A DNA stretch of 64,000 nt from positions 12,663,483 to 12,727,482 of the forward strand of contig NC_019859.2 in NCBI RefSeq assembly GCF_002234675.1, given 5' to 3'. The notes under the pieces were generated by a model that did not search any database, had not been told where the DNA came from, and worked only from the letters and a program-made list of their open reading frames with translations. This DNA comes from Oryzias latipes. Lineage: Eukaryota; Chordata; Actinopteri; Beloniformes; Adrianichthyidae. The position numbers and the translations under genes were made by a program. The number at the start of each line of letters is the position of its first letter. Within the stretch, counting starts at the first letter, position 1. Positions 48 through 64,000 of the stretch are shown here, piece by piece.

Positions 48-6050
<6,003 letters not shown>

Positions 6051-12700: not shown

Positions 12701-15700
12701 AGCCGCAACGCTTACATTGCTACTCAGGGTGAGTTACTATCTGCATGCCTTTCTGAAAACTTTGGGATTGTTTATGTAAAAAGCAATAAGATAAACAGTA
12801 ATTCACAATAATGGGCAGTGTAGATTATGCAGGAAGGCTTTGGTTTAAACTCACGGTTTTCTTTTTTTCCCATTTAAACATTTTTATTTTGGTAAACAAA
12901 TGCTCAATTCCTTTCACTTAGTTCATACATAACTTAGTTCATACATTTAACTTAAACATTGCTTTCCTCTGCTTTTGCCTCCTTGCTTTTATTACTATGT
13001 TTACTAAGTTGTAGAAAAACTCTCTATTTGCATGTAAGAAATTGTAAAACTCATGAAAATAGCTGAGTAGTTCAGTTTGTTTATATGGATGTGTGCTCTT
13101 TTACTTCATTTTTTTCCTACATATATAAATAAGACCATTTACACATGTAGCTTCTGGAGTGGAGTTGGGCCCAAAAGATTTCAGTTTCTCACTTTATCTC
13201 TTCCAAAAGATCTGAGGATCCTGGCAAATAGACTTGTCTAAATGGGTTCTGTGAAGATCCCCTGCTGATTCTCCACATTTATTATTGTTTCATTTTGTTT
13301 GTAATTTTCTATAAAGTTCAAGATTAGACTTCCAGAGTTACATGATTGTGTTTTTAGTTCTAAGGTCAGTTTTGTAACTTTTAAGTGATGCTATTTATTT
13401 AAATAAAGCAAGCCTTACTTAACTTGTTCCACTCATTAACATCATGTTGGTGTGGATCTGCAAACAGAATTTGGAAAACATAGAATGCTTGATATTAGAA
13501 ATATATTTTATGATGGAAATATATATTGTTACGTAAAAACCTTTCTATCTTGTGTCTTTGCATAATTTTATAGTAATGGTTGGTTGTCAGTGTTATTGGA
13601 GGATGGATTTAGAAAATGTTTTGGGTTTTAAATACATTCCATTTGATTTTATGTTAGAAAAGTCAAAAGTTTTAGAAAACTTGCATCCTCCTCTCTGCCT
13701 TCACCCTGTCCGCAGTGTTGTACTTTCATCATGATTCAGTCTTCTGTGTCCTGTAGGTCCTCTGCCAAAAACCTTTGGTGACTTCTGGCGGATGGTATGG
13801 GAACAGATGGTACTTATCATTGTTATGACCACCAGGTGATTCTTTGAATTTCTTGTCATCCTAATGGATTTTGTCAAAAGTTTGTTGTTTTTAAAGGATG
13901 GGCTGAATTATTGAAAAAGTGTTTCTCAGGGTTGTGGAGCGTGGACGTGTCAAATGTGGGCAGTACTGGCCTCTGGAGGAGGGCAAGGCGGAGCAGCATG
14001 GATATTTCTTGATCAGGAATACACACATTCAGTTGTTTCAGGATTTCCAACTCACTCACCTTGAACTGTACAACACACAGGTATATGGTGTAACCTATAA
14101 AAAAACCAACATACGTTTTCACATGGTTATTTACCTGAGTTTGCTCAGCTGCTTGAGGATCTGCTTTCAATCGTCTGTGTTTTCCAGTCTGGCGAGAAAC
14201 GTGAAGTAAGCCACTACCTCTATGTCAGCTGGCCTGACTTCGGGGTGCCAAAAAGTGCATCTGCCATGTTGGACTTCCGTGAGCATGTTCTTGAAAGAAG
14301 GAAGGCTGCCGTCCAAAACCTGGGGTCCAGCTGGAGGGGGCCTCCATGGGGCCCTCCTGTTGTTGTTCACTGCAGTGCTGGTATTGGACGTACAGGTACG
14401 CAGATACTTTAGACCAGAGGTCGGCAACCTGCGGCTCTTTCATCCCTGTGCTGCGGCTCTCTGTGTATTTGTAAAATAACTATCATGTTCTAAGATTGTC
14501 GTGGTGCCTTTAACACCGTCGGGTAGTGCGAGCGGCAGGAGGAAGAGAGCAGCGTGTGCATGCGGAGGGGGCGTGTCTGCAGCTGTGAACGCCAACCAGA
14601 GTCTGCTATAGGATGGAATGTTTTTCTGGAAAGACAGCTAGTGGTGATCTCGTATGGGACACAAAAGCCTTTTTTTTTCCTAGACTAAAACCACCCATTT
14701 CCACGTAAAATGAATAAAATTTGGGCGCCCCTATTATCCTGTCAACTTGCTGCTACGATGACTGTATGTCTGTGTAGAACACGCTGGCGCGGGGGGAGGG
14801 GGGGTGCACGCGGGGAAAACAACTTGGAGCTGCAGATGTGTGAACAGGTTAGGAAATAAATAATTAAATAAATATCCTGACAACATTTGGAATCAATACA
14901 AGTCTTGCCAAATGAGCGATATTTCGGCGAAATGATTTTTTCTAACACCACGAATGTTGCTGCTCCCTGTGCTTTCATTTCTGTGGGAAACTGATCCAAG
15001 TGGCTCTTTGAGAGGAACAGGTTGCCGACCCCTGCTTTAGACCTTAAGCTTACCACAATAACTGTGGAACACCTAGAAATATGTGAAAAGTCTTAATAAT
15101 TAATAATACTACCACGGATCGATACCTAATTTATCATAGTAGTAATTGGATATTTAGTAAAATTAACTTTCCTTTTTAACTATGAGTCACATCGTTTACT
15201 TTTTTAGCTTTCTCTGCTGACTGATCAGAACTCTTTTCTTTACACTGGTGTTTAGCTCATAGTTTTGCTGTTTTTCCCCTTATATTTGACTCCTTTGACT
15301 TATTTTCTGAGGTTAATGTTAGGTTCCAGTGTCTTTAAATGCAGTCAGATGGTCAGTTTTGTATTATCTGAATGTTGGCTTGATGCTCCAGGTGAAAAAG
15401 GGGAGAATCACCAAAGGAAAGTCTCCCAGTTTTTATGACTGCCTCTGATGTCATGTAAATACAAATAAACTTACTGTTTGCAACTAGAAAAAAAAATGAA
15501 AATTGACTGGGTTTTTTCACAAAAATGTAAAGAGAGACCAGAAAATCAGAAAAAACTGCATTTGTATTGAGAAAACAAGCAAACATTTGACTGAATTTAG
15601 TAAAATACACATACACATTAAACCTTTAAATTTCGACATTACATTTTTTAGAACTTACAACCACTGTAAGGGTTGAATTTATCTAGAAAATTGTCTAATC

Positions 15701-20670: not shown

Positions 20671-23600
20671 TCACCGACGAATGCGGTTCCTTTGAATTGA
20701 CACGGGGTACGTCCTCTGAGTACGAGAGCAGGAAGTGCAGCAAACTCTTGTGTAGTAAGGGTAAACGCAGAGGCGGGCCTGAACCACTAACACGCAGTTA
20801 TGGAACTGGTCACTGCAAAGTGGATCTGTCAATCACATTAAAAAAAAAAGAAAAAAAGATCAGATCAAATGATTTTGCTGCTGCCACTTGGACTTGGGAG
20901 TAACCTTTTTGTTGAACACCCTGTTTAGTTCATCGGCTCAGAAAATGTATCCAAATCTAACAACCTAAAATACTGTTAGAAGCTGTTTCAGTTTGTTTCA
21001 TTTAGAAAAAGAGATTGTGCAAACAAATCAAATGAAATTCTTCAATTAAAAAAAAACTTTATGACTGAGTAGTTTTGTAGATTGTGGCAAAAAGTAATTT
21101 TAAAAACATGCAGTCTAATCATTTATAAGACCGGGTGTCATGGTTTACCTGCAGCCTGACAAACCATCTGTTACTAGAAGTTTATAGCTATTACTACAAA
21201 TTAAAATGAAAGTTCAATGCTCTATGTGAGCACAGCCTCTTCTTAAAAAAAAAAAAATGTTTTAATCTACGAAATAAAAACTTTTGGTGTCCCTTTCTAT
21301 AAATGAAAACTGTTCAATTAGTAATTAAATTCCCACTCTGACTCTAATCATCTTTTGATCTAGTATATCTATCTATTTATTTATTTATTTTTTAAACGTT
21401 CCCAGTCGTCTTTATATTATGATTTGTGTTGTTTTTCTCTACAATAAAAAAAATCTGTTTCGCTTTGTAGGACCTAGTTTCTGCAGAGCGGCAGAAATTC
21501 ATGGGAAATGTGCCTCTAAGTTGTGGGCAGAAGTAGGCCTGCCCTCATCTCCCAACACCCCCTTGTTTTCACTCTGTCCCGCTATTTTACAGCCCCTCAC
21601 AACTCCAACCTAACATTACCGGTGCAACAAAATTGGTGATTAATATTGTAGCCACCCAGCGTACAGCTTTGAGCCAGATTTCAGCTCAGACGAGGAAACC
21701 GAAGACGTACATGGATCTATTTGTCTGCAAGTGGATGCATCGGAATGGAGCGGAGCAGGCAGCTTGTGGCCTGCTCAGCATGTTCTCTATACGAAACAAA
21801 AACACTCTTTTTCCAACATCATTTTTTCTATTTGCTCCTGATTCACAACAGTTTGAAAAAAGAAATATTCAGAATTTTCTTTATAAATGCCTCTATTATC
21901 AGAAAAATGCCACAAGAGCATGTAAAAAAACAACATCACAATTTTCATTGGAGCGGATCTTTAAATGTACTTTTTTACATTGATTTAAAAATCATTGTCA
22001 ACATCATAGGTTCCTGAAAAAGACAGAGATGCTTTCCCTTTCACGCGTTACCGTAATATTTACATACACTAGACTAGAGTCAGTGCTGTATTGTTGAATA
22101 GACCTACTCGTTTCAGTTAGACATGGTTGTTTGTTGCATTCCTCACGACTCTCAGGAATTGAAATGGGGTGACAGTCGTCACTTGGAACAATGTCGTCAG
22201 TGAGACAGCGGACCTCACGCACCCGGTAGCCGCTGTTACAGGAGCGAGAGCACTGAGGAGATGCACGGGGAGAAGCAGTACAACTGAACACAGACTGCTG
22301 AGGTCACTTACAAAGAAAAGCACAGACAAAGGCAGGTGACTCAAAAGTCCTCACTTGACTCAAAACATTATTATTGGTGTTTAATTGTTGATCTAAAGGT
22401 TTGAAGACATTGGCACAAGTAATATTTCACATAACTCTAATAAATGTACAAGAAAACAGAAATAGCATACCGTAATTTTACACTTGAGAGCACATCTAGC
22501 CAAAGTGGACGGATGAAGGGATTCAGATTTTTTGTGGGCGTTGAACTTCGCTTTTTAAAAGTTGACTCATAATTATTTGACAAAAAGGGTGTACCTCTTT
22601 ATCTAATAGCATCTTTTATAGTTTTTGAATTTATCTTTACTGCCTGAGTAGAACCTTACTTGTTCAACAAAGTTTCTTTGAGCTTTTTCTTACACATTAA
22701 TGAAATTAACAAAACAATGGCAACAGTCACATTTGCTTTGAAATGAAACAGACTTTTCCTCACCTATAATCGTTAAAATATACATGATTGTGCAAAGAAT
22801 GGAACAGATGGGTGTCTAACTCAAAACCTCAATGGCTAATGTCAGTATTTTTTCCAACTTTCCCTGGTTTTGGTACTTCTTTTTGGTAAAATACAACTTA
22901 TCCAGGTAAGTAGCGGCAGGTTGGGCAAGAATGTGTGGAAAACAAGCAGGACAGTTGCTTTTTAGATCTGTAGTTTGAAATCTTCGGTGACTGATCCCAT
23001 AAACTTACCGCACTCCATTCTGTGACGTACCACTGGACCCCACAAGGTTTCAGTCTGCAGGGCTGCGATGTGATTGGCTTAGACAGACCGGAACATTTGA
23101 ACTGATCCACAACCTCTTGTAGACCGTTGTTGGTGAAAATGCAAAGTGCACTGCGGGTCTGTGTGCCGTTTCCACATTCTGCAGAACACTTGCATCAAGT
23201 GTGAACAAAGGTGAAGCCGATGTGTTTGGTTTAACCAAAAACTTTGGACGTCCTTATGAGAGTTACCTGGCTCCAAGGTCCTGTGTACCACTCAAGCTGA
23301 TTTTGACAGGGGCCAGCATCGCATGATGTCACAGCTGGTGGGCGGTCCCCTTCACAGCCATCCAGTGGGAGATCACTCCCACCACGATTGCTGAGACATA
23401 CGACCGATCTGGTTTTATTCCCTCGACCACACTCTGCAGAACACTGAGAAATTTCAGACAGATTTGGATGAAGCTTCTTTTTTAATACCCTCCATCCATT
23501 AATACATTTTCTTCACACAACCAAATAGTGGTGGTGTTACCCGCTGGCTCCAGAGAGAGGTGAACCAGCTTCTTGCACAGACTCCCATATCACAGTTTTG

Positions 23601-26600
23601 TAGAAAGTCTGGCTTTAGGCTCATGTTGCACTCCTGCTCATCCTCCACAACCCCCTGATTGCTCACACACACCACTTCCCTGCTGCGCTGGCCCACTCCA
23701 CATGGCACTGAGCACTGAAGGAAAACAGAAGACTCATCTCTGCTGACAGAAGACATGTGCTTCATTTATTTGCTCATGCTGATTTTATATTTTCAATGGG
23801 CATATGGCTCTAATAACAGAAAAGAATGTTTTTTCCAAAATTTCAATTGTTAGAGCAGAAGTTCGCTGTTATGCAGAGATGAAAATGCTGAGCTCAGAAG
23901 TTGTGTAGCAGCTTCATATAAACGTCAAATATTTTGTTTTTCTTACAGGGCTCCAGTCAGACCGGAGCTCCCAATGACTGCAGATCTTCAGCTGGCATGT
24001 GGATTGTGTCATCGGCCTTTCAGACGTGCCGCACTGCTCTGGCGCCACAGCAACAGAAGTCTCTGTCCCATTGTCATGAACTCGGGTCACCTGGCAGCAG
24101 ATCACCTGACGCATCTGACTGCCAGGCCCACACTTCCTGCTGCATTCTGACCACTCCCCAATGTCCCAGCTGACCGCAAATCAAAGAGGACAAAGAGAAA
24201 TTTGGAGGAAATGAAAAGCAAACGCCAACTGTGGTGACCATCTAATAAAGGAAACCACCAAGAGATTAGGCCAACTATGTGTCCTAATTTTAAGAAGATT
24301 AAATGGACTTCATGCCAAATGTCACTAATTTGCAACATAATCCAGGACTTTACCTAATTTAACATCCCCTTGAATGGAAAAAGCAGGATCTTTAAAGCAC
24401 GTTGTTTACCTGAGAATGGAAAGCAGGCCAACAGGGGCAAGAAGTTCCAGTACTGATACCATAAACTGTTTTTTTGCAACCCCTCCATTGCTGCGGTCCA
24501 GTAAATGTTTATGGTTTGCAATAATCCTAAATAGTTTAGCAATGAAATATGTAAACACATTTTGTGGAAAGCAGCGATGTATGGAAAACCTTTGTTGTAA
24601 TCTGATCCCACACTGCCTCTCATTCCTGGGATGCCATTAAAAAAACAGAATAAAAGTAAGCACTTTTTTTAATCACTCTCACCAGTTGACCATTTAAAAA
24701 AAAAACACATTTGAACCTATTCTCTCTTTTAGCATCTGCTGTATGGCCAAATAGATTACATTTTTTGTAGATTTCGTTCTAAATTCAATTAAATACTTTT
24801 TAAAGACTCACTCTGATCATCTATTTTCAAGTCGTTTTTTTTGTTATAATTGTGCCTTATTTAGCACACACAAAAAAACCCTGTGTCGTTTTCTAGAAGA
24901 TACTATAGTTGCTGTAAAGCCACAGTAGTTTATTAGAAATTCACCTCTGAGTTGTGACACAGGGAACCCCCCCCCCCCCCCGTTACTGAGAGCTCTCTGT
25001 TTACACACTCTCCCACTAGCTTACAAACCCGTCACAATCCTAGTCCAACATTACCCATGCAATAAAATTAGCGAGTAATATTGGAGCAGGTTTGAGCCAG
25101 GTTTGAGCCAGCTTCCAGCTCAGACGAGGAAAAAAAGGAGCAGGGAGCTTGTGGCCCACCCAGCGTATATTCTTCATCACAAATATGCTTTTTTTTTTTT
25201 CAAACTGAATTTTTTTTGCTGCTCCTGATTCACAACAATTTGAATAAAGAAATACCAGTACTCAGAAATGACACTTTCACTGTCCATCATAGGAAAAATG
25301 TTACAAGAACATGTGAAAAACACCAAAGACAATTTTCATCAGAGTAGGTCAAGGTTAAAACATAACAACAAAATAATATCCATTGAACAAAAGGAAAACA
25401 AATTTCTGGCCATCCTCAGGTTCTGCCAGTGAGAGAGTTGGGTTTATTTCTTTTTTATACATACATCATTTTTTCATTGGGATGCCTGTTTTTTTTTAGA
25501 GTAGTTGTTCACATCCATCTTTCTTTTAAAATCCAATCTAAAGGGAATTGCAGTGTATGTAAAAATCTGGTCAGAGAGTGTGGTTGCATTTTACTCACTA
25601 GGGAGGACAGGGATATTCGTTGCAGTCCTCCTGGTTTGTTGGTTCATTGGAAAGGTCACAAAAGTCAGCTGGAACAGTCATCTGGGAGTCACTGTCGACA
25701 CACTCCCAAAATACAGCACGCGTCCCTGCAGTGACACACTCAGCAAGTAAGTGTTTGCCCACTTTTATAGGCACTGACACACGATCCTTTTTCTTTTATT
25801 GGAGCAGATGGAGTACCTCAGGTACATTTTGGGAAAAGGAGGTTGACTGGTGAAAAAGGAAAATGAACCACAGGAACAAACCCATGAGGGCTCTTACCAG
25901 TACCACAGGTTGTGCTGCATCCTGTGTGTCCAGTCTTTGTCCAAACATAAGTGGACTGAGATACAAAGTTGATGCTGGTGTCAAAGGAATCCTTTTTGGA
26001 ATGGGTTTTATCCTTGACAGTGATGCTGTTAACGGTGGCCTCTGTGTTGACTCTCTCATCTCCATCCAATTGCGCTTCAGTGTCATCTGGGGGAAAATGT
26101 TTCTTGGATTTTTCTTTTTTTTCTGCACTATCAAATTTCATGCATTACTGTGTTTGGTGTGCCATGCAGATGTCATCCTCTCATAGTCCCTAAATACCAC
26201 GTAAAACGACACATACAATTTTACAAATATAAGGCTAGAATAAAAAAGGAGTATGTCATTAATTAGAAAAAAAACAGTTAGATAATTCACTCAGCACCTT
26301 TGTGAGCTGAGTTCTGTTATTTAAGTAAGAGATGTAAGGGTTAGAAAAAATTGATGAGTGAAAATGAATTTTTTGTCATTTTTCCCATTTTTTACTTGTT
26401 ATTAGTTTGACCTGAAACCGTAAAGTTTTTTAGTTTGCAAGTTGGTGCACGCACTCACCTGGAGGCATTATGTCAGGTGTGTCTGGTTCTGGAGAAGAGT
26501 GAATAATTATAGGTATGCTGTATTCATAATGAACACTTGGACCTGGTTGTTGGTAAATTAACTGTTAAAAAAAAAACAAAATCCACATCTTTACACATTG

Positions 26601-30982: not shown

Positions 30983-38377
<7,395 letters not shown>

Positions 38378-39930: not shown

Positions 39931-41336
39931 ATGAGAGGTTTCCTGATAATTGCTCTTGTGCTTCTTTTCTTATGTGAGTTTTGGTCAAATATCACAACAC
40001 AAGTGACCTAAACATCTCGTTCTCGCTTGTAAATCTGCTCTACTAATTTCGCAGGGCTTCTGAAAGCTGACCAGTCAGGTGACAAAGGAAATACTCATGA
40101 GGTTAGTGAGAAAAAATAGGAGTTTACGGTTAAAATTGGGGCACAGAATTGTTTCCTTTGTCACTTTCCGTTCTGGTTCCCAAATTGGGGCAAAATGGAT
40201 CGATTTAAAAAAAAAAAGCTTCTCTGTTTATATAAAGTGTTAAGTTTGGCACATTTAAGAGTTTATTATTTGGGAGGAAAGAGAATTAAAAAAAAAAAGT
40301 GTTCACTAATTGCAGTTGAGGTGTTCCCTGAAGAAAAATATTTTTACACTATTTGTGGGGGTATTGAATTTTTCTTTTTTTTTTTTTTTTTTTTTAACTT
40401 TGCAGTTGCTGGGATGAGAATTGACCATGACCTGTGCCACAAGTTTGAGATGTAACTGCTGAGTCTGAGCTGTGTCACAATAGCTAAGATTATGGCAGTT
40501 TCAGGATTGTTTACAGGGGTGCCACTTTTAACCCTGGAACTGTGGCATTTTCATAGGAAACCATAGGATGCTATAATGTTGGTGGTCTTATAAAATTACA
40601 TCAGACTAAAACCATATTTTCACTTAAGTCCTCAAAACTTGATGTCAAATGTGTAAATGTAAGTATTAGTTTAGGGAGTCAAAATGACACGACATCTAAA
40701 GAGTTGTTAAGAAAAACATTTTTTAAGACCCTTATTTGCACATATTTATGTGCAATCAAGCATAAGAAGTGATGGAAATTCCTTTCAGCTAAACGTTATG
40801 AGTGCGGCCAAGATGCATATTGCTCGCATGTATTTTAACCCCCCGTTATCATGTGCGAATAGTCATTTCTCTTTCTTTTTAAAAAATCAACACTTGATGT
40901 GTCCTTGTTTCTTTTGCTTTTGCAGAAAGGAACCCTGGGGGAGTTGGTGCTCACTCTCCTCTTATCTCCACTCTCTTTGTACTCCTGGGTGGCTTCCATA
41001 CTCGTCAGATTCATCATATCCATCCCAGCTCTTGGTCTCAGCGCCCTTCATTACTCCGTTGCGCTGATCTTTGCTGGGCCTTGGTGTGTGGCGACTATCT
41101 GCGTATCCCTGCTGCTGACTTGTCTCCAAATCACCCTGTACCTGCTTCACATGACCCTGGTGGTTGGGGTGGTGATAGTAGTTTTGACCCTCGCACGATC
41201 TAACTCCACTGATCGTGAGACCGTTGAAGAGGTGACAACAGATGAGGCAGCGAAGCGACTCCAGCAGTGGAGAGTGGAGCATCAAATGAAAACCAAACCA
41301 AGAAGGATATTTTTTAGAGTTGCAAAACAAGGCTGA
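39931..41336 (+). CDS. Small multi-pass membrane protein, unrecognised
   Basis: I do not recognise this gene. Three coding exons join in frame (39931-39973, 40055-40101, 40926-41336) into 166 residues ending at TGA. A 5' UTR exon ending at 39836 before GTAAGT, with a three-codon upstream open frame at 39808, is likely. Residues 1-18 (MRGFLIIALVLLFLLWLL) look like a signal peptide or anchor. Residues about 33-125 are almost continuously hydrophobic, enough for three or four membrane segments, broken by small loops (ISIPALGLSALHY, FAGPWC). The C-terminal 40 residues are soluble, first acidic (TDRETVEEVTTDEAAKRL) and then strongly basic (MKTKPRRIFFRVAK), as in a cytosolic tail. A poly(A) signal AATAAA is at 41507-41512. 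The splice sites are standard, the stop is followed at once by low-complexity DNA, and the hydrophobic pattern is coherent, so I believe it is real. Function unknown. Confidence 0.75.
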
Positions 41337-56226: not shown

Positions 56227-59200
56227 TCAGTGGCGATCGTAAGCGGAGGCTGTTGCCGTGGCAGCAGGGCCTGCTCCCCGTGATGTTGCACTGTAATAGT
56301 ATGGTGATCCTGAAAGAAAACAAAAGTACATGTACTCTTACTTATATACTACGTTCAACAGACTGTAACAGAAGTAAGGAAGTATCTAAAATCTGTAACA
56401 TTTTATTTTGGGGGCAGTGTTAATGTGTTTTAACCCTCTGGTTGTGTTGGTGTCCTGCGCCTCACTTTCAAAATTGCGGGGCCTGTGTTGACTGATCATA
56501 AATTAGCAGTGTCATTTTTACTGAACATTTTTTAACATTTTGAAAATTGTAGCAGAGAACAAAGTCTCAAAGTAGTCTTTAAAGACCCCCTTCAATGAAA
56601 ATCACGTATTTAACACGTTCTTGTGGCATTTTTCTCATAATGGAGGGCATGTATAAAGAGAATTAACATTCCAATAGCATTTCTGAGTATTTATTCAAAT
56701 CAAGAATCAGGAACAGATGAAAAAATGCCATTGGAAAAAAATTGTAGGCGGGCCAAAAGATGATGAAAAGGATGATGGGAAATGGGGACGGGCTTACTCT
56801 GCACCAACGCTTCCACCCACAACTCAGAGGTGAATTTCCAAGTAACTACTGCAGAAACGACGTTTGTTTATTTTGACAGTATAATCATAATTAAAAGACT
56901 ACTGGGAACACTAAAATACATCAAAAGATGATCGGAGAGGGACTTTAAATTTCTCTTACAGCAGTAGGATATTTTTTTGCTGTATAAATGTGGAAAAATG
57001 ACACACAGATTAATTTGAACCACCTATTGATGGATAGAACGAACAAAGCACAATAATCTTGTATTATTCTACGTTGGACTAATCAAAAAATTTCTTTGAA
57101 ACTTGTGCAACTGACTTGTTCTGGTCTTTTTTCTTCATGTATTTCTGTCACAATGTCATCGTACCCTCAAATCATAGCAATTAACTTGCCGAGAATAATT
57201 TCTATTTCAGATAGGAACGATGGTTAAAATGACAAAAATACGACTCGGGTTTTAATAAATCTGAAATCTCCTCTTAACGTGCAGTTTAAATGTGAAATGA
57301 GCAGCTTCCATTTTCTGTTAAGATTATATTTTATGAAAAATGTAAGAAATGAAAGGAAAAGGATGAGATGACATGAGCTGATGAAGCTAATAGCTGGAAA
57401 ACTAGTCTCGCCTTACAGTAGATCTGACTTTGTCTGCTTCCAGCCTCTCTCAGTGTTACCATCCTACCTTCCACACACACATGCTCACACACACACCATC
57501 TATGACAGTCTAAGTTGACACGCTGAGCACAGCTCTACTACCACTGATCCCTTGAGTCTATTCTTTCTCCCGGGAGAAGGTCAATTCAATACTGTAACCC
57601 TGAAGACACACAGAGACCCGCTCTCACACTTCTTAAGACACACTTCAATAGAATCACCTACACACAAACTTGTCTCTGTCACTTTCATCAGTCAATCTAG
57701 CTATGTACTGACAGGATGTGTCTGTCCACAGTCCAGGTAATCTCAGAATCCTCTTTGAGGAAGTGAGGCATTAAGTCGCCCTGACAAACTCTTTAGTCTC
57801 ACTCAAACTCAACCCACTCTCTCTGTAAATTGCCTCTTTTCTCTCTACTCTTTTCTTTCTTAATCCTCCCCCCTGTGTTTGTCCTTGTCTTTTTCAGCTA
57901 CCTTATGTGCATCTTGTCCACACATTATGTGTCTACTCATCCGGAGTAAAACCAAAGCACCTCTCTTTCTCCTGCTCTGACACACACAGAGTTTTTTTAA
58001 TTCGTTCACTTGCTTCTTCTTGTCTTTCTCCCACCACCTACCTTGCATCTGTCCTGCCTGAGTAGTGAAGAGACTGGACGAGCAGCCGATCTCCGTCCCC
58101 AAGAGAGACCCATAATCCTGCTGAAACACTGAGGGTAGAGGGATGGAGGGAGGGAAAAGAAGAGGTGAGGAGAGGACAGGGTGGGGGCACACCGCAGGTC
58201 ATCACAGCCTGACCCGTTTTAAACTACCATGACCTTTGGTGCTACCACAACCTGACCGCCTCACCTTTCAGACAAACTCCTACAGTAACTCCCAAGTACG
58301 GTGGCCCTGAAGTGCAAATCACATCAACAGATCAGTCTACGCAAAAACATACTAAAGATCACAATGACAATTTAAAAAGCTAAGCAAGTAATACAAAAAT
58401 ATTTATATTTTAGAAAACACAATTCCAAAAAGAATTAAAAATGAAACGATTCAGAAAACAAAAGTAATTTCCAGAAATCAATATGAAATGTAAAAAAATG
58501 AAACCAGAAAAGGTATGTACTATGGGTCATCGCTGATTGGATGATGGCATTTGAGTTTTTTCAAATGCATTTTCAATGTCCACATAATAATAAAGGTTTT
58601 ATGATTAGTACGGCGCATACTCAATGTTGCTTCATGCCGAATAACTTTTGGTTGAAAAGATGGACAAATGTCATCATCAAATCAGTGATGTCCCATAGTA
58701 CTGACCTTTTCCGGTTTCCTGTTGTGTTTTGTTTTGTAACATTTCAATTTCTTTCCTGAAAACATTTTACTTTGATTTCATTTTTTTTGTGTTTGTGTTT
58801 TGGTTTCTGTCATTTTGTTTTCTTTTAAAATTTACAGCAGTTTTTTTTATAAATTGTTTAGCTTTTTTAATTGTCATTGGGATTTTTAAAATGATTTTGC
58901 ATTGTGTGATTTGTTAGTGTGATTTGCACATCAGGGCCGCCGTACCCAAGACTTAAAAAAAGATACAGATATGCAGTGTTTCATTCATCGTTCTTCCAGC
59001 TGTCCGCCGTTTCTCAGCCAGTCAGTGCCATTCCACTATGAGGAGCAATTCTTTTAATATGGAACTTTATTGACATGGCAACTTATCAGATTACATCCTT
59101 CTGACTACTTTGAAAGCATTGTGTTTTTTTCCATTTGAATAATAGGTAATTAAACGAATAATCACACTTTGATCAGATATGTACTGTAATTAATAATTAA

Positions 59201-59644
59201 TGAATCTTGCTTTTGAGCTAAATTATTTTTTCTATTTTAGTGGTTTTATAAAACTTAAATTGAAGACAATTCACTCCTAGAACTGGTGTTTTCTGATAAT
59301 TCCCTTCCATTTTTTTTTCTTCCAATGCATTCATCCACAAGCATTTCAAAACAAACCTTTCCACTGACAAGTAAGCATGTCTGAGGTACAGCAAAGAATG
59401 ACAGATAATGAAATGAAAACATGACAAATGGAGCATGAGTGGTGCCTGTTATTATTAGAAGGGTTGGGATTAATTGTGTGACAAAAAATTGGGACTTTTT
59501 TCTTGTGATTGAGACCTGCTAATCTGAAATGGCTACCACTTTATGGAAAGTACCAACCTAAGAGGCTGGGATTTGGAAATCTCCATGACTCGTTGTATGT
59601 GGAATACTGCGGATGGGAATATGGACTTCCGGAAAAATCTCCAC
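56227..59644 (-). CDS. pax5: Paired box protein Pax-5, C-terminal exons (5' part beyond window)
   Basis: Transcription factor of B-cell and midbrain development. Two exons of its transactivation/inhibitory tail are here. Exon 59558-59644 follows acceptor TCTATAG and reads [20 protein letters not shown], then RFPNPSLLG, the penultimate exon in human. Exon 56227-56309 follows TTTTCTTTCAG and reads [20 protein letters not shown], then SAYDRH and stop, the invariant Pax2/5/8 C terminus. Phases agree (phase 1 at the join), so GLL-type G is split across it. Pax2 and Pax8 differ in the residues around the WRF block; together with the neighbouring melk, as in human, this makes Pax5 the best call. The paired domain, octapeptide and homeodomain remnant must lie to the right of 64,000. 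The donor of the 59.6 kb exon is GTTGGT, weaker than usual. Confidence 0.93.
56578..56948 (+). repeat. MITE family A, copy 10 (pax5 last intron)
   Basis: Starts CTTTAAAGACCCCCTTCAATGAAAATC and ends AAAGATGATCGGAGAGGGACTTTAAA; the interior is shortened. It lies 270 bases upstream of the final pax5 exon on the coding strand. Confidence 0.85.
58042..58128 (-). CDS. pax5: Candidate unannotated pax5 cassette exon
   Basis: On the pax5 strand, between its last two known exons, an 87-base segment has a strong acceptor (a 30-base pyrimidine tract ending CTACCCTCAG) and a strong donor (GCAAG then GTAGGTGG). Joined to the exon at 59558-59644 (phase 1) it reads [20 protein letters not shown] then FTTQAGQMQ, with no stop, and ends again in phase 1, so it splices onto SPYYYS without changing frame. 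Length is a multiple of three, as a cassette exon needs. I do not recognise the peptide. All three frames are open over these 87 bases, so openness alone is weak evidence; the splice sites and matching phases carry the case. Confidence 0.4.
58297..58944. mobile_element. Fold-back (long inverted repeat) transposon in pax5 intron
   Basis: A 648-base element begins TACGGTGGCCCTGAAGTGCA and ends with the inverse TGCACATCAGGGCCGCCGTA. The inverted arms continue inward: TATGTACTATGGGTCATCGC at about 58,513 pairs with GTGATGTCCCATAGTACTGA at about 58,685. So nearly the whole element can fold back on itself. It is flanked by a 6-base direct repeat CCCAAG (58291-58296 and 58945-58950). No transposase gene is present. 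Superfamily uncertain. Confidence 0.82.
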
Positions 59645-60095: not shown

Positions 60096-60127
60096 AGAAA
60101 GTCCAGCTAATGTTTAATCATTATTTG

Positions 60128-60228
60128 ACTACTACTACTACTACTACTACTACTGCTACTGCTACTACTGCTACTACTACTACTACTACTACTGCTACTA
60201 TTACTGCTACTGCTGCTGCTGCTGCTAA
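60128..60228 (+). repeat. Trinucleotide repeat (CTA/CTG)n in pax5 intron
   Basis: About 33 CTA-like triplets with interspersed CTG units, ending in a short pure CTG run before AATAAT. It starts 33 bases after the second TTAA MITE. Confidence 0.95.
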
Positions 60229-60585
60229 TAATATGAATAAGAATAATTGTTGTTGTTAAAATTTAGCACATTATGCCATGTTGACTGCATTTTATCATTA
60301 AAATATTTGAAAGAAATACAATTAGGAAAGAAAAAACTAAATAACTTTATAATGTTTTGTCATTGTATTTCCACTCATTTTTCCATAAATGCACATCTAA
60401 ATACCTTGAAGGCACGACTTTTACAACATTGTTTATTATATAATATACATTTATGCAGTAGAAGGCCATTGCAAATGAGAGTCAAACATAAATATACAAA
60501 AAAAGGGATAAATGCGTAATTTGAGGGGCTAAAGATTTCCTTTAAAAATAGGGCCTTTTGCTATTGTTATTTCTGCAATGCCCAA

Positions 60586-61194
60586 AAATCCACTCAGATG
60601 AAAATTGTGTAATTTTAACATTTCTCATGATAAAGGGCATGTATGAAGAAAATTAAGCTTGCAATTGCATTTCTGAGTATTTCTGTATTTAAATTGTTGT
60701 GAATCAGGAGCAGATGAAAAATTGCTATTTTAAAAAACTTGTTGATGTGACGTAAAATTAACAATCGGCGGGCTGCAAGCTCCCTGCTCCGCTCCATTCT
60801 AATGCAACCACTTGCAGACAAATAGATCCATGTACAGTATGTATTTGTTTTCCTCGTCTGAGCTGGCATCTGGCTCAAAACTGTGCGGCCGGATAGCTTC
60901 GACATTGCTCGCCACTCTTTTTGCACCGGTAATATTAGCCTGGGGTTGTGACGGGCTGTAAGCTAGCCGGAGAGAGTGCAAACAAAGAGCGGATGGGGAG
61001 TCAGGATAGGCTTACTCCGGCTCCACATGTCCCATCCACAGCTGAAATGCAAATTATTTACGAACAACTGCTGCTCTGCAAAAACTCTGCCATATAAAAT
61101 GACAGGTTTTTTAGATTTTGGCTAAAGCTGGAATAATAATAATTAAAGGACTAAGTCACAATAGATCAATAGATGATCTGAGTGGGACTTTAAA
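60586..61194 (+). repeat. MITE family A, copy 11 (pax5 intron)
   Basis: The longest forward copy: starts near ATCCACTCAGATGAAAATTGTG and ends AGATGATCTGAGTGGGACTTTAAA. It contains GGGCTGCAAGCTCCCTGCTC and GAGCTGGCATCTGGCTCAAAACTGT. Confidence 0.88.
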
Positions 61195-64000
61195 GAAACT
61201 TGAATTGATGATCTCTTAAGTTTTGTCAATAATGCTACCAATATTGACTCAAAATTGGGGGACAAATAGGGGGCAAAGCCTTTCACTGTTGTCACCTATA
61301 CAGTAGCTTAAGCCCTCTATATACACATGTGCATTTATATAAAACATTAACCGTTTGCAGCGTTTTCTTTTCCATTTTATGTAACTTCTATCCATTTTGC
61401 TAACACATGGTAAAGCTTTTCCAGCATGACGCAGTTGAGATGGACAGGAGATGTTAGCGAGGCTGCTGAAGTTCAGCCATACAGTGGATGATGGCAAAGC
61501 TTTTCTCCCTCATTTACTACCCACTGTCTAGGGTTTACCCTTCCTCTTGTTTTCTCATCCCTCTCCTCCCTTCACTTCAGTCTATTTATCTTTCTGCCTC
61601 CTCTCTTTTCTCTGGCTCTTCTGACAACAGCCCACCCATCACTTATCACATCAAAACAACAATCTTCTCTCCTCCCCTCATTTCTTTGCTGACTTGTTCT
61701 TTCTTTTTCCCTCTTTTGCTTTTTCTTTTTTCTATTTTTTTATTCCTTCTCCCGGGGGATCCCTCTCCCTTGGCTGACAGTCACAGACCCTGATGCCCCC
61801 TCTCTCCAGCCCACCCTCCATTCCTCTCCTCTGCATCTCGTTCTGTCGGTTCTGCCTCACTGCTCTCCTACACCCCCTCTGAGTGTCAGCCCCCCTGCTG
61901 CAGAGAGAAAGACAGAAAGACAGAGGGAGAAGGAGAACAGCAGAAGAGAGTTGCTTGCTTAATGAAGGTATGATATTAGACAGGGCGAGCAAAAAAGAGG
62001 ATAATTTGCTTGAGAATTGCTGAGATAAAACAAGCTGGAAAAGCAAAGTTTGTAGATTATCTCCTTTAACAATTCTTGTCCGATTATTGATTCAGGGAGC
62101 TGAGAGAATTCTCTGAAAAATGCAAACATTGACACTGAGGAAGTGCTCGCATACAACTTTTCTTTGTCTGTGTGTACATGCGAGTGTGTATCTGTTTAGC
62201 TGCGTCTGTCAGGAGGGGTCGAGATGTGGTCTCCATGGCACCCCTGGGTGTGAACATCCTCTCCCTTGTCATCACCGTAGTGACGGGAATATGTCAGGTT
62301 GTTTGGGAGATGAGAGGCGGGGGCGGGGAGAGAGGAGGGGAACGAAGGCTCAGGGGTCTCCATCGTGTAGCTCAGTGTCAAGGTCGCACGCACACGCTGT
62401 CAAAAACAAACACACATGCACGAAAACAATCCCGTACACCGATCCAAATACACACTCAAGTATACTGTCAAACCTGAGGACAGGACGGGGCGAACGCAGG
62501 GGGACAGGGCAACAGGGTTACCCGTCTTTAGATGTGCTGTTCTTACATGTCCGCAGAGACTCTGTATGTGTCAGCCCCAGAATGTGTGATACTGAATGAT
62601 TGGGACAAAAACTTGCAAAAAAAAAACCCTGTTAGCGATTCAGTTTCGGTGAACAGCAGCAGCATCCCTCTCACTGACCATCGCTGTTGCTTCTGGTGTG
62701 AACGAAAGCAAAGAGGGAAGAAGAATGGCGTTCCGGGATTGAAACACAAAAGCGCCATGGAAGGCGGAGTGGAAGGGAATGAATGAATTAGTCGTGGGTC
62801 ACTGGTGATTCTCATTAAAAACAAATTACTAATGTTGAGGAGGGACAGCTGTGCTAGTGTGGCTGGTTTCTAATGATACTCGGGGAGACACACAGCACAG
62901 GCGCAAACACACGCACACGTAGACACACAACACATGCCACCTCCTGGGACCGCTGTCAACCACAGTGTAGACAGACAAGAAAGAGGAAGTGTCAGAGCTA
63001 AGTACATTCTCTGAAGACTCACACACGTGCGTGCATACTGCGCACATCGAAGAGGAATTCAACACATTTATGGGTGCAGATGAGCTTTTCATGGCACGAC
63101 AATCACTGAGTAATTGATAACAGGTACTTACAACAACAAGCATTATTCAAAGTGCCAACATTCCTTAAGGAACGTTCAGACCATTGACTGTACAAGAGAA
63201 CTGGACTGAGTGAGCGTGACAACACCCATAGAAAATGACTTGCTTCCAGACAAAAGTAGTGAATTCAGTCACCATTTTTTCACAACACAGACACCGCCAT
63301 GTCGCTGCCAGATGACGTCAGTGGGCAATGATTGGTCCGAATTGGTCTTCGACAATGTTTGGCAACCACTATCGCCAATCAGGAGTGAGCTTGTTGGAAA
63401 CCCATACACCTACCACCTGAAAGCAGGCTACAGGAAATCTGACAACCCAACGTTTGAAATATGAGATGACATATTTCTATTGAGGTGTCTGATTGGTAAG
63501 TTTACAACTTGAATAACTTGCGCTAAAATTATCATGAAAAAAAACTAGGATTAACAAGAACATGTTAAAGAAATGCATTACATGAAAAATTGTAAATTTG
63601 GTAAATATGACTTAGTAATAGCTGTTTATAAAAGTTTAAGCAACGGGTACTTCCTATTGGAAAATGGGGGGAGGGGGGATCATTCAGTCCAGTTCCCTTA
63701 TACAGTCGATTATTCAGACCAGGATTTCCCTTTGGCATGCTAGAATTGGAGAGCCTCGTGTGGATCTTGCAGTAGATATGTACCTGAGTTTAAATTATAA
63801 AATGTCCTGGCCAAAACCAGCATTTGATAACTTGCTGGGATGTGAACCAGCCTTTGTTGTCAGTCACTGTGTCAGCTTGCTCCTCTACTGATGATAAAAC
63901 CCAAGCTTTATTTACAAAAGAAGATCTTAGATCCAAAAGAATAAATTCACTGACTTTCCAGTCTGATCACGGAAGCCCAGCCAAGTCTTTCCTAATCCTG
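61195..64000 (-). other. pax5: pax5 intron, rest of window
   Basis: The next upstream pax5 exon (encoding the GYPPHVPPAGQGSY-type segment) was looked for on the minus strand and not found, so this stretch is taken as intron. It holds a pyrimidine-rich tract (61,500-61,880) and CA-rich patches (62,390-62,460; 62,885-62,935). A denser block at 62,200-62,310 (CCATGGCACCCCTGGGTGTG, CATCACCGTAGTGACGGGAA) could be a conserved element. Confidence 0.45.

Follow-up and report, generated by a model that had tools for sequence, protein, structure and literature searches.

The question raised by this locus is whether the last intron of a fish pax5 gene carries an exon that could be spliced into the message without loss of the reading frame. 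A preliminary description had pointed to an 87-base segment with a pyrimidine tract, a CAG acceptor and an AAG/GTAGGT donor between the penultimate and last exons, and both direct reading and reassembly of the exons placed it at exactly the coordinates given there. We analyzed this segment, the candidate, in the context of the whole 64-kb stretch of DNA, which we call the window (Table 1). The reading that we favor, tentatively and from the letters of the DNA, is that the candidate may be a used, splice-competent and frame-preserving cassette exon of pax5. Such an exon is probably lineage-restricted and its product is probably minor.

Table 1. Positions of the features discussed, in window coordinates.
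Feature	Position	Strand	Basis and remarks
Helicase, Helicase_C match	2282-2629	-	Pfam
Phosphatase, best PDB match PTPN9	14101-14409	+	PDB match
ADAMTS-type protein, TSP1 repeats, three frames	22901-24180	-	Domain matches
melk-like kinase frame, best PDB match MELK	32347-32616	+	PDB match
KA1 domain of melk-like kinase	38180-38374	+	Domain match
pax5 exon 10 (last), coding part and stop codon	56227..56309	-	27 residues; direct reading and in-frame joins
Interspersed repeat family stretches	56500-57100, 60600-61260		Window self-comparison
Candidate donor, GTAGGT after AAG	58036..58041	-	Direct reading and site scoring
Candidate cassette exon, between exons 9 and 10	58042..58128	-	87 nt, phase 1/1, 29 residues
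Candidate acceptor AG with its preceding 40-nt pyrimidine-rich tract	58129..58170	-	Site scoring
Foldback element (MITE-like), an imperfect long inverted repeat, last pax5 intron	58296..58945	.	650 bp
pax5 exon 9 (penultimate)	59558..59644	-	87 nt, 29 residues, phase 1 in (inferred) and out; direct reading; Pax2_C tail match

The end of the pax5 gene occupies 59644 to 56227 of the minus strand. Neither exon 8 nor the paired domain was found within the 64-kb window, and for this reason the entry phase of exon 9 was taken from the conserved tail peptide. The first G of the exon 9 peptide comes partly from exon 8, and the first G of the exon 10 peptide is likewise shared with the preceding exon. 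Exon 10 follows directly on TTTCTTTCAG, with 56309 as its first position and 56227 as the last base of its stop codon. When the typed peptide of the exon 9-10 join was compared with Pfam it matched Pax2_C (PF12403, 6.4e-22), the tail of the Pax2/5/8 class. The same join with the insert matched PF12403 at 8.5e-23 in two stretches, the best of which reaches 22 residues into the insert. A melk-like kinase lies in the same window (32347-38374, plus strand). PAX5 and MELK are neighbors in human, and we take the tail WRFPNP-LLGSPYYYS ... AYDRH together with a MELK neighborhood to be marks of PAX5. The gene appears to be a teleost-like pax5, with membership in Pax2/5/8 supported by the Pax2_C tail and the choice of pax5 over Pax2 or Pax8 resting partly on this background. 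Among the other genes of the window, the helicase is presumably helq-like. An open frame of 157 residues at 40863-41333 (plus strand) had no Pfam match and shows several hydrophobic stretches by eye, and is possibly an exon of a membrane protein.

The candidate has the anatomy of an exon at both ends. Its acceptor reads CCCTCTACCCTCAG/TG and its donor AAG/GTAGGT, the 40 nt preceding the AG are 92.5% pyrimidine, the AG-free zone before the acceptor is 78 nt and so extends upstream beyond that tract, and a branch-point-like CTCAC lies at -38. The candidate had been described as phase 1 on entry and exit and divisible by three in length, and this is borne out by the joins, since the frame runs through AYDRH to the stop whether exon 9 is joined to exon 10 directly or by way of the candidate. 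The 29 residues gained by inclusion fall between SLL and GSPYYYS, ahead of the SPYYYS...AYDRH end as had been proposed. Usable acceptor and donor sequence, together with a length and phase that keep the frame, are what is expected of a cassette exon, and all of these are found in the candidate. The claim that the frame dictated by splicing is open also stands, but it is not specific. All three minus-strand frames are open over the 87 nt, which makes the open frame weak evidence.

All splice sites were scored with a position-weight score derived from general vertebrate position frequencies. There are three AGs within the candidate, at 58120, 58117 and 58057, with acceptor scores of 2.17, 2.80 and 4.54. 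Splicing to any of these shifts the frame into an alternative tail, therefore only the first acceptor yields the cassette protein. An exon that begins at one of them (79, 76 or 16 nt long) and replaces the inhibitory tail would be an alternative product, and the shifted exon 10 frame does continue into the 3' UTR. We consider it highly improbable that this is how the segment is used, as the acceptor at 58128 (4.10), the first after the tract, outscores the AGs at 58120 and 58117, and the AG at 58057, although its score is higher still (4.54), would leave an exon of only 16 nt.

A similar concern is that the segment could be the start of an alternative terminal exon, with splicing into 58128, the donor unused and the protein ending 60 residues on within the intron. 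The dictated frame is open to 57863, an ATTAAA hexamer lies at 58001 and other Pax genes have alternative C-termini. However, the stop would lie downstream of that hexamer and the candidate donor is strong. A single ATTAAA hexamer is also no signal here, because there are five of them between 58128 and 56309. This arrangement is very unlikely.

The strength of the two sites can be compared with the rest of the window and with exons of the melk-like gene. Over both strands of the window, the candidate donor ranks in the top 17 of 7168 GTs and the candidate acceptor in the top 287 of 8110 AGs. The pyrimidine content of this acceptor, in combination with an AG-free zone of 40 or more, is reached by 2 of 8086 AGs, its own included. 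The melk controls comprise 13 exons whose boundaries were placed by script around peptides recognized as MELK-like, with m7 and m11 among the doubtful ones. The candidate donor equals or exceeds 11 of the 13 control donors. Its acceptor is weaker than 11 of the 13 control acceptors, and the two that it exceeds are of doubtful placement. Taken together the sites have a summed score of 10.0, and six of the 13 melk exons score no higher. The candidate acceptor is also modest when set against those of its own gene (4.10 vs 9.16 for exon 9 and 10.69 for exon 10). The donor of exon 9, TAG/GTTGGT starting at 59557, is weak, with a score of 0.41 that 8.1% of all GTs equal or exceed. Reading through this donor (59549-59560) terminates the frame after GWYFP.

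The most serious alternative, and in our view one only somewhat less likely, is that the candidate is a silent pseudo-exon, in which an acceptor and a good donor happen to lie in matching phase, separated by 87 nt, within a pyrimidine-rich and G+C-rich patch of intron that the spliceosome ignores. The modest acceptor score relative to real exons is consistent with this. Across the window there are 14 acceptor-donor pairs with both scores as high (6 on the minus and 8 on the plus strand), of which two, one of them the candidate, have a length divisible by three and are open in phase 1. In controls for a 3248-nt intron, an open pair that keeps the frame and equals or exceeds the candidate in both scores was present in 10 of 1500 introns generated with an order-3 Markov model, 12 of 500 with a local order-2 model and 2 of 74 real tiles. 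This chance rate of 0.7-2.7% of control introns or tiles is optimistic, because the candidate itself supplied the thresholds. Each Markov or tile count was obtained by multiplying a printed fraction by its n, and the real tiles are half-overlapping and contain real exons of other genes, with minus-strand tiles overlapping the candidate left out.

When the pairs are judged by summed score the candidate stands out less. In-frame open pairs as good were then counted at 61 of 1500 order-3 introns, 46 of 500 local order-2 introns and 9 of 74 real tiles (4-12%), and seven such pairs on the two strands of the window reach the candidate's summed score, with the candidate itself and possibly real exons among them. 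Against a silent pseudo-exon, requiring a tract that is 80% or more pyrimidine and an AG-free zone of 40 nt or longer on top of both scores left 0 of 1500, 0 of 500 and 0 of 74, again with cut-offs taken from the candidate. For a single intron the candidate is unusual, but it is less so given a free choice from the whole window, and the preliminary description was free to pick the best-looking segment from all of it. The candidate is thus partly more than chance, and chance is a fair explanation of it.

The coding signal adds little to either reading. Codon usage was trained on 417 melk codons, and the candidate scored 0.86 in the dictated frame, 1.66 in another forward frame and 6.76 in an antisense frame, with the control exons uninformative. 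Exon 10 scored 2.79 in frame vs 6.22 in a wrong frame, and the known exon 9 scored -2.21, which leaves the test without power. The lack of a coding signal in this powerless test, together with three open minus frames, is what would be expected of a pseudo-exon. The G+C content of the candidate is 0.54 vs 0.39 for the intron when the foldback element is left out, and the 160 nt upstream of the candidate are equally G+C-rich (0.544). The candidate peptide alone had no match to a Pfam family.

We looked at the surroundings of the candidate for other origins. Exon 9 and the candidate are both 87 nt long with phase 1/1, which could suggest that one is a duplicate of the other. A BLAST search of the window with the candidate (word size 7, E up to 0.01) found no further copy, therefore the equal length looks like coincidence and a duplication was rejected. 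An exonized repeat was rejected as well, as there is no overlap with the foldback element (58296-58945) or with the repeats at 56.6-56.95 and 60.6-61.2 kb. The family to which these repeats belong also occurs at 21.5-21.9, 44.3-44.7, 46.1-46.6 and 51.4-51.9 kb, among the matches listed. A structural RNA was the third origin set aside, since the window contains no tRNA and nothing in it reached an Rfam gathering score. Pattern searches for relatives in a prokaryotic and a viral sequence collection, neither of them intended for fish, gave 239 and 9 matches respectively, of which none was confirmed. An ACT/GCT-type trinucleotide repeat lies at 60110-60241, in the intron upstream of exon 9.

The near end of the foldback element is 167 nt upstream of the candidate. 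Its arms are 104 nt at 82% and its inner arms 59 nt at 85% complementary, and folding of 58290-58950 as RNA gave -229.3 kcal/mol with a z of -13.7 (vs 20 shuffles). On this model the pre-mRNA would fold into a long hairpin at the element. This may bear on a further possibility, that the candidate is recognized occasionally as splicing noise, in a small fraction of pax5 transcripts, and has neither conservation nor function. A good donor and tract at the candidate could ease such occasional inclusion, and the weak exon 9 donor (0.41) and the strong hairpin element upstream could ease it as well. We think that noise of this kind is unlikely. The cassette exon remains our tentative preference. 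Its splice sites, its phases and the open frames across both junctions are present in the DNA, and we infer from them its use by the spliceosome and any effect on activation.

Alternative splicing of the C-terminal tail is familiar in this gene class. PAX2 and PAX8, which belong to the class of the gene studied here, have alternative exons in their C-terminal tails, and isoforms of Pax8 were reportedly described by Kozmik in 1993 and Poleev in 1995. As far as is known, these exons differ from the candidate in position and phase. A closer likeness in kind is offered by fish pax2.1, where the available part of a 2015 survey on splicing in the Pax2/5/8 class describes a 21-bp cassette exon, located between exons 2 and 3, in many Acanthomorphata (PMC4488758). 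Like the candidate it is an in-frame cassette in a fish Pax2/5/8 gene. In contrast, the part of the account at hand places it in the paired domain, conserved across the species compared and reported in transcripts (PMC4488758). For human PAX5, the portion of the account available to us gives isoforms that lack exons 6-9 in combinations, one isoform with a partial intron 6, and C-terminal variants reported to differ in transactivation (PMC9456430). As with the candidate, splicing alters the activation tail, but the isoforms in that portion are deletions or carry partial intron 6, and none described there inserts sequence between exons 9 and 10. The earlier remark that no such Pax5 isoform is known agrees with the published isoform accounts, as far as the portions seen extend (PMC9456430, PMC4488758). 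Strings of the candidate peptide had no match in the literature searched. No title on a pax5 exon between exons 9 and 10 was present among the matches listed, with a 2013 paper on trout pax5 splicing outside that scope, and the same searches returned no paper matching a teleost pax5 splice variant with a cassette exon.

The position of the insert can be read against the domain map of mouse Pax5, of which we draw on the part available. There, exons 8-9 (CRD1) are an activation domain with a small extension, exon 10 (CRD2) is a shortened inhibitory domain, and the two were deleted singly and jointly in mice for a study of B-cell development (PMC10509461). This part of the map agrees with the proposal that the insert lies in the region that sets transactivation strength (PMC10509461). 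If exon 9 were joined to the candidate and the candidate to exon 10, the protein would gain its 29 residues at SLL/GSPYYYS, between the activation domain of exons 8-9 and the inhibitory domain of exon 10. The insert could then serve as a spacer or a small docking segment, and may loosen the hold of the inhibitory tail on the activator. A stronger form of this idea is that fish pax5 carries a regulated and conserved 29-residue cassette that parts the activation and inhibitory domains, as a splice switch for Pax5 strength in B cells or the midbrain-hindbrain region that is absent in mammals. We regard this stronger form as decidedly improbable.

If the candidate is not used, it would be one more of the pseudo-exons that are common in introns. 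If it is used, it would be a natural insertion placed exactly at the border of the blocks that in mouse are CRD1 (exons 8-9) and CRD2 (exon 10), and would offer a convenient way to ask whether the distance between these two disordered blocks tunes Pax5.
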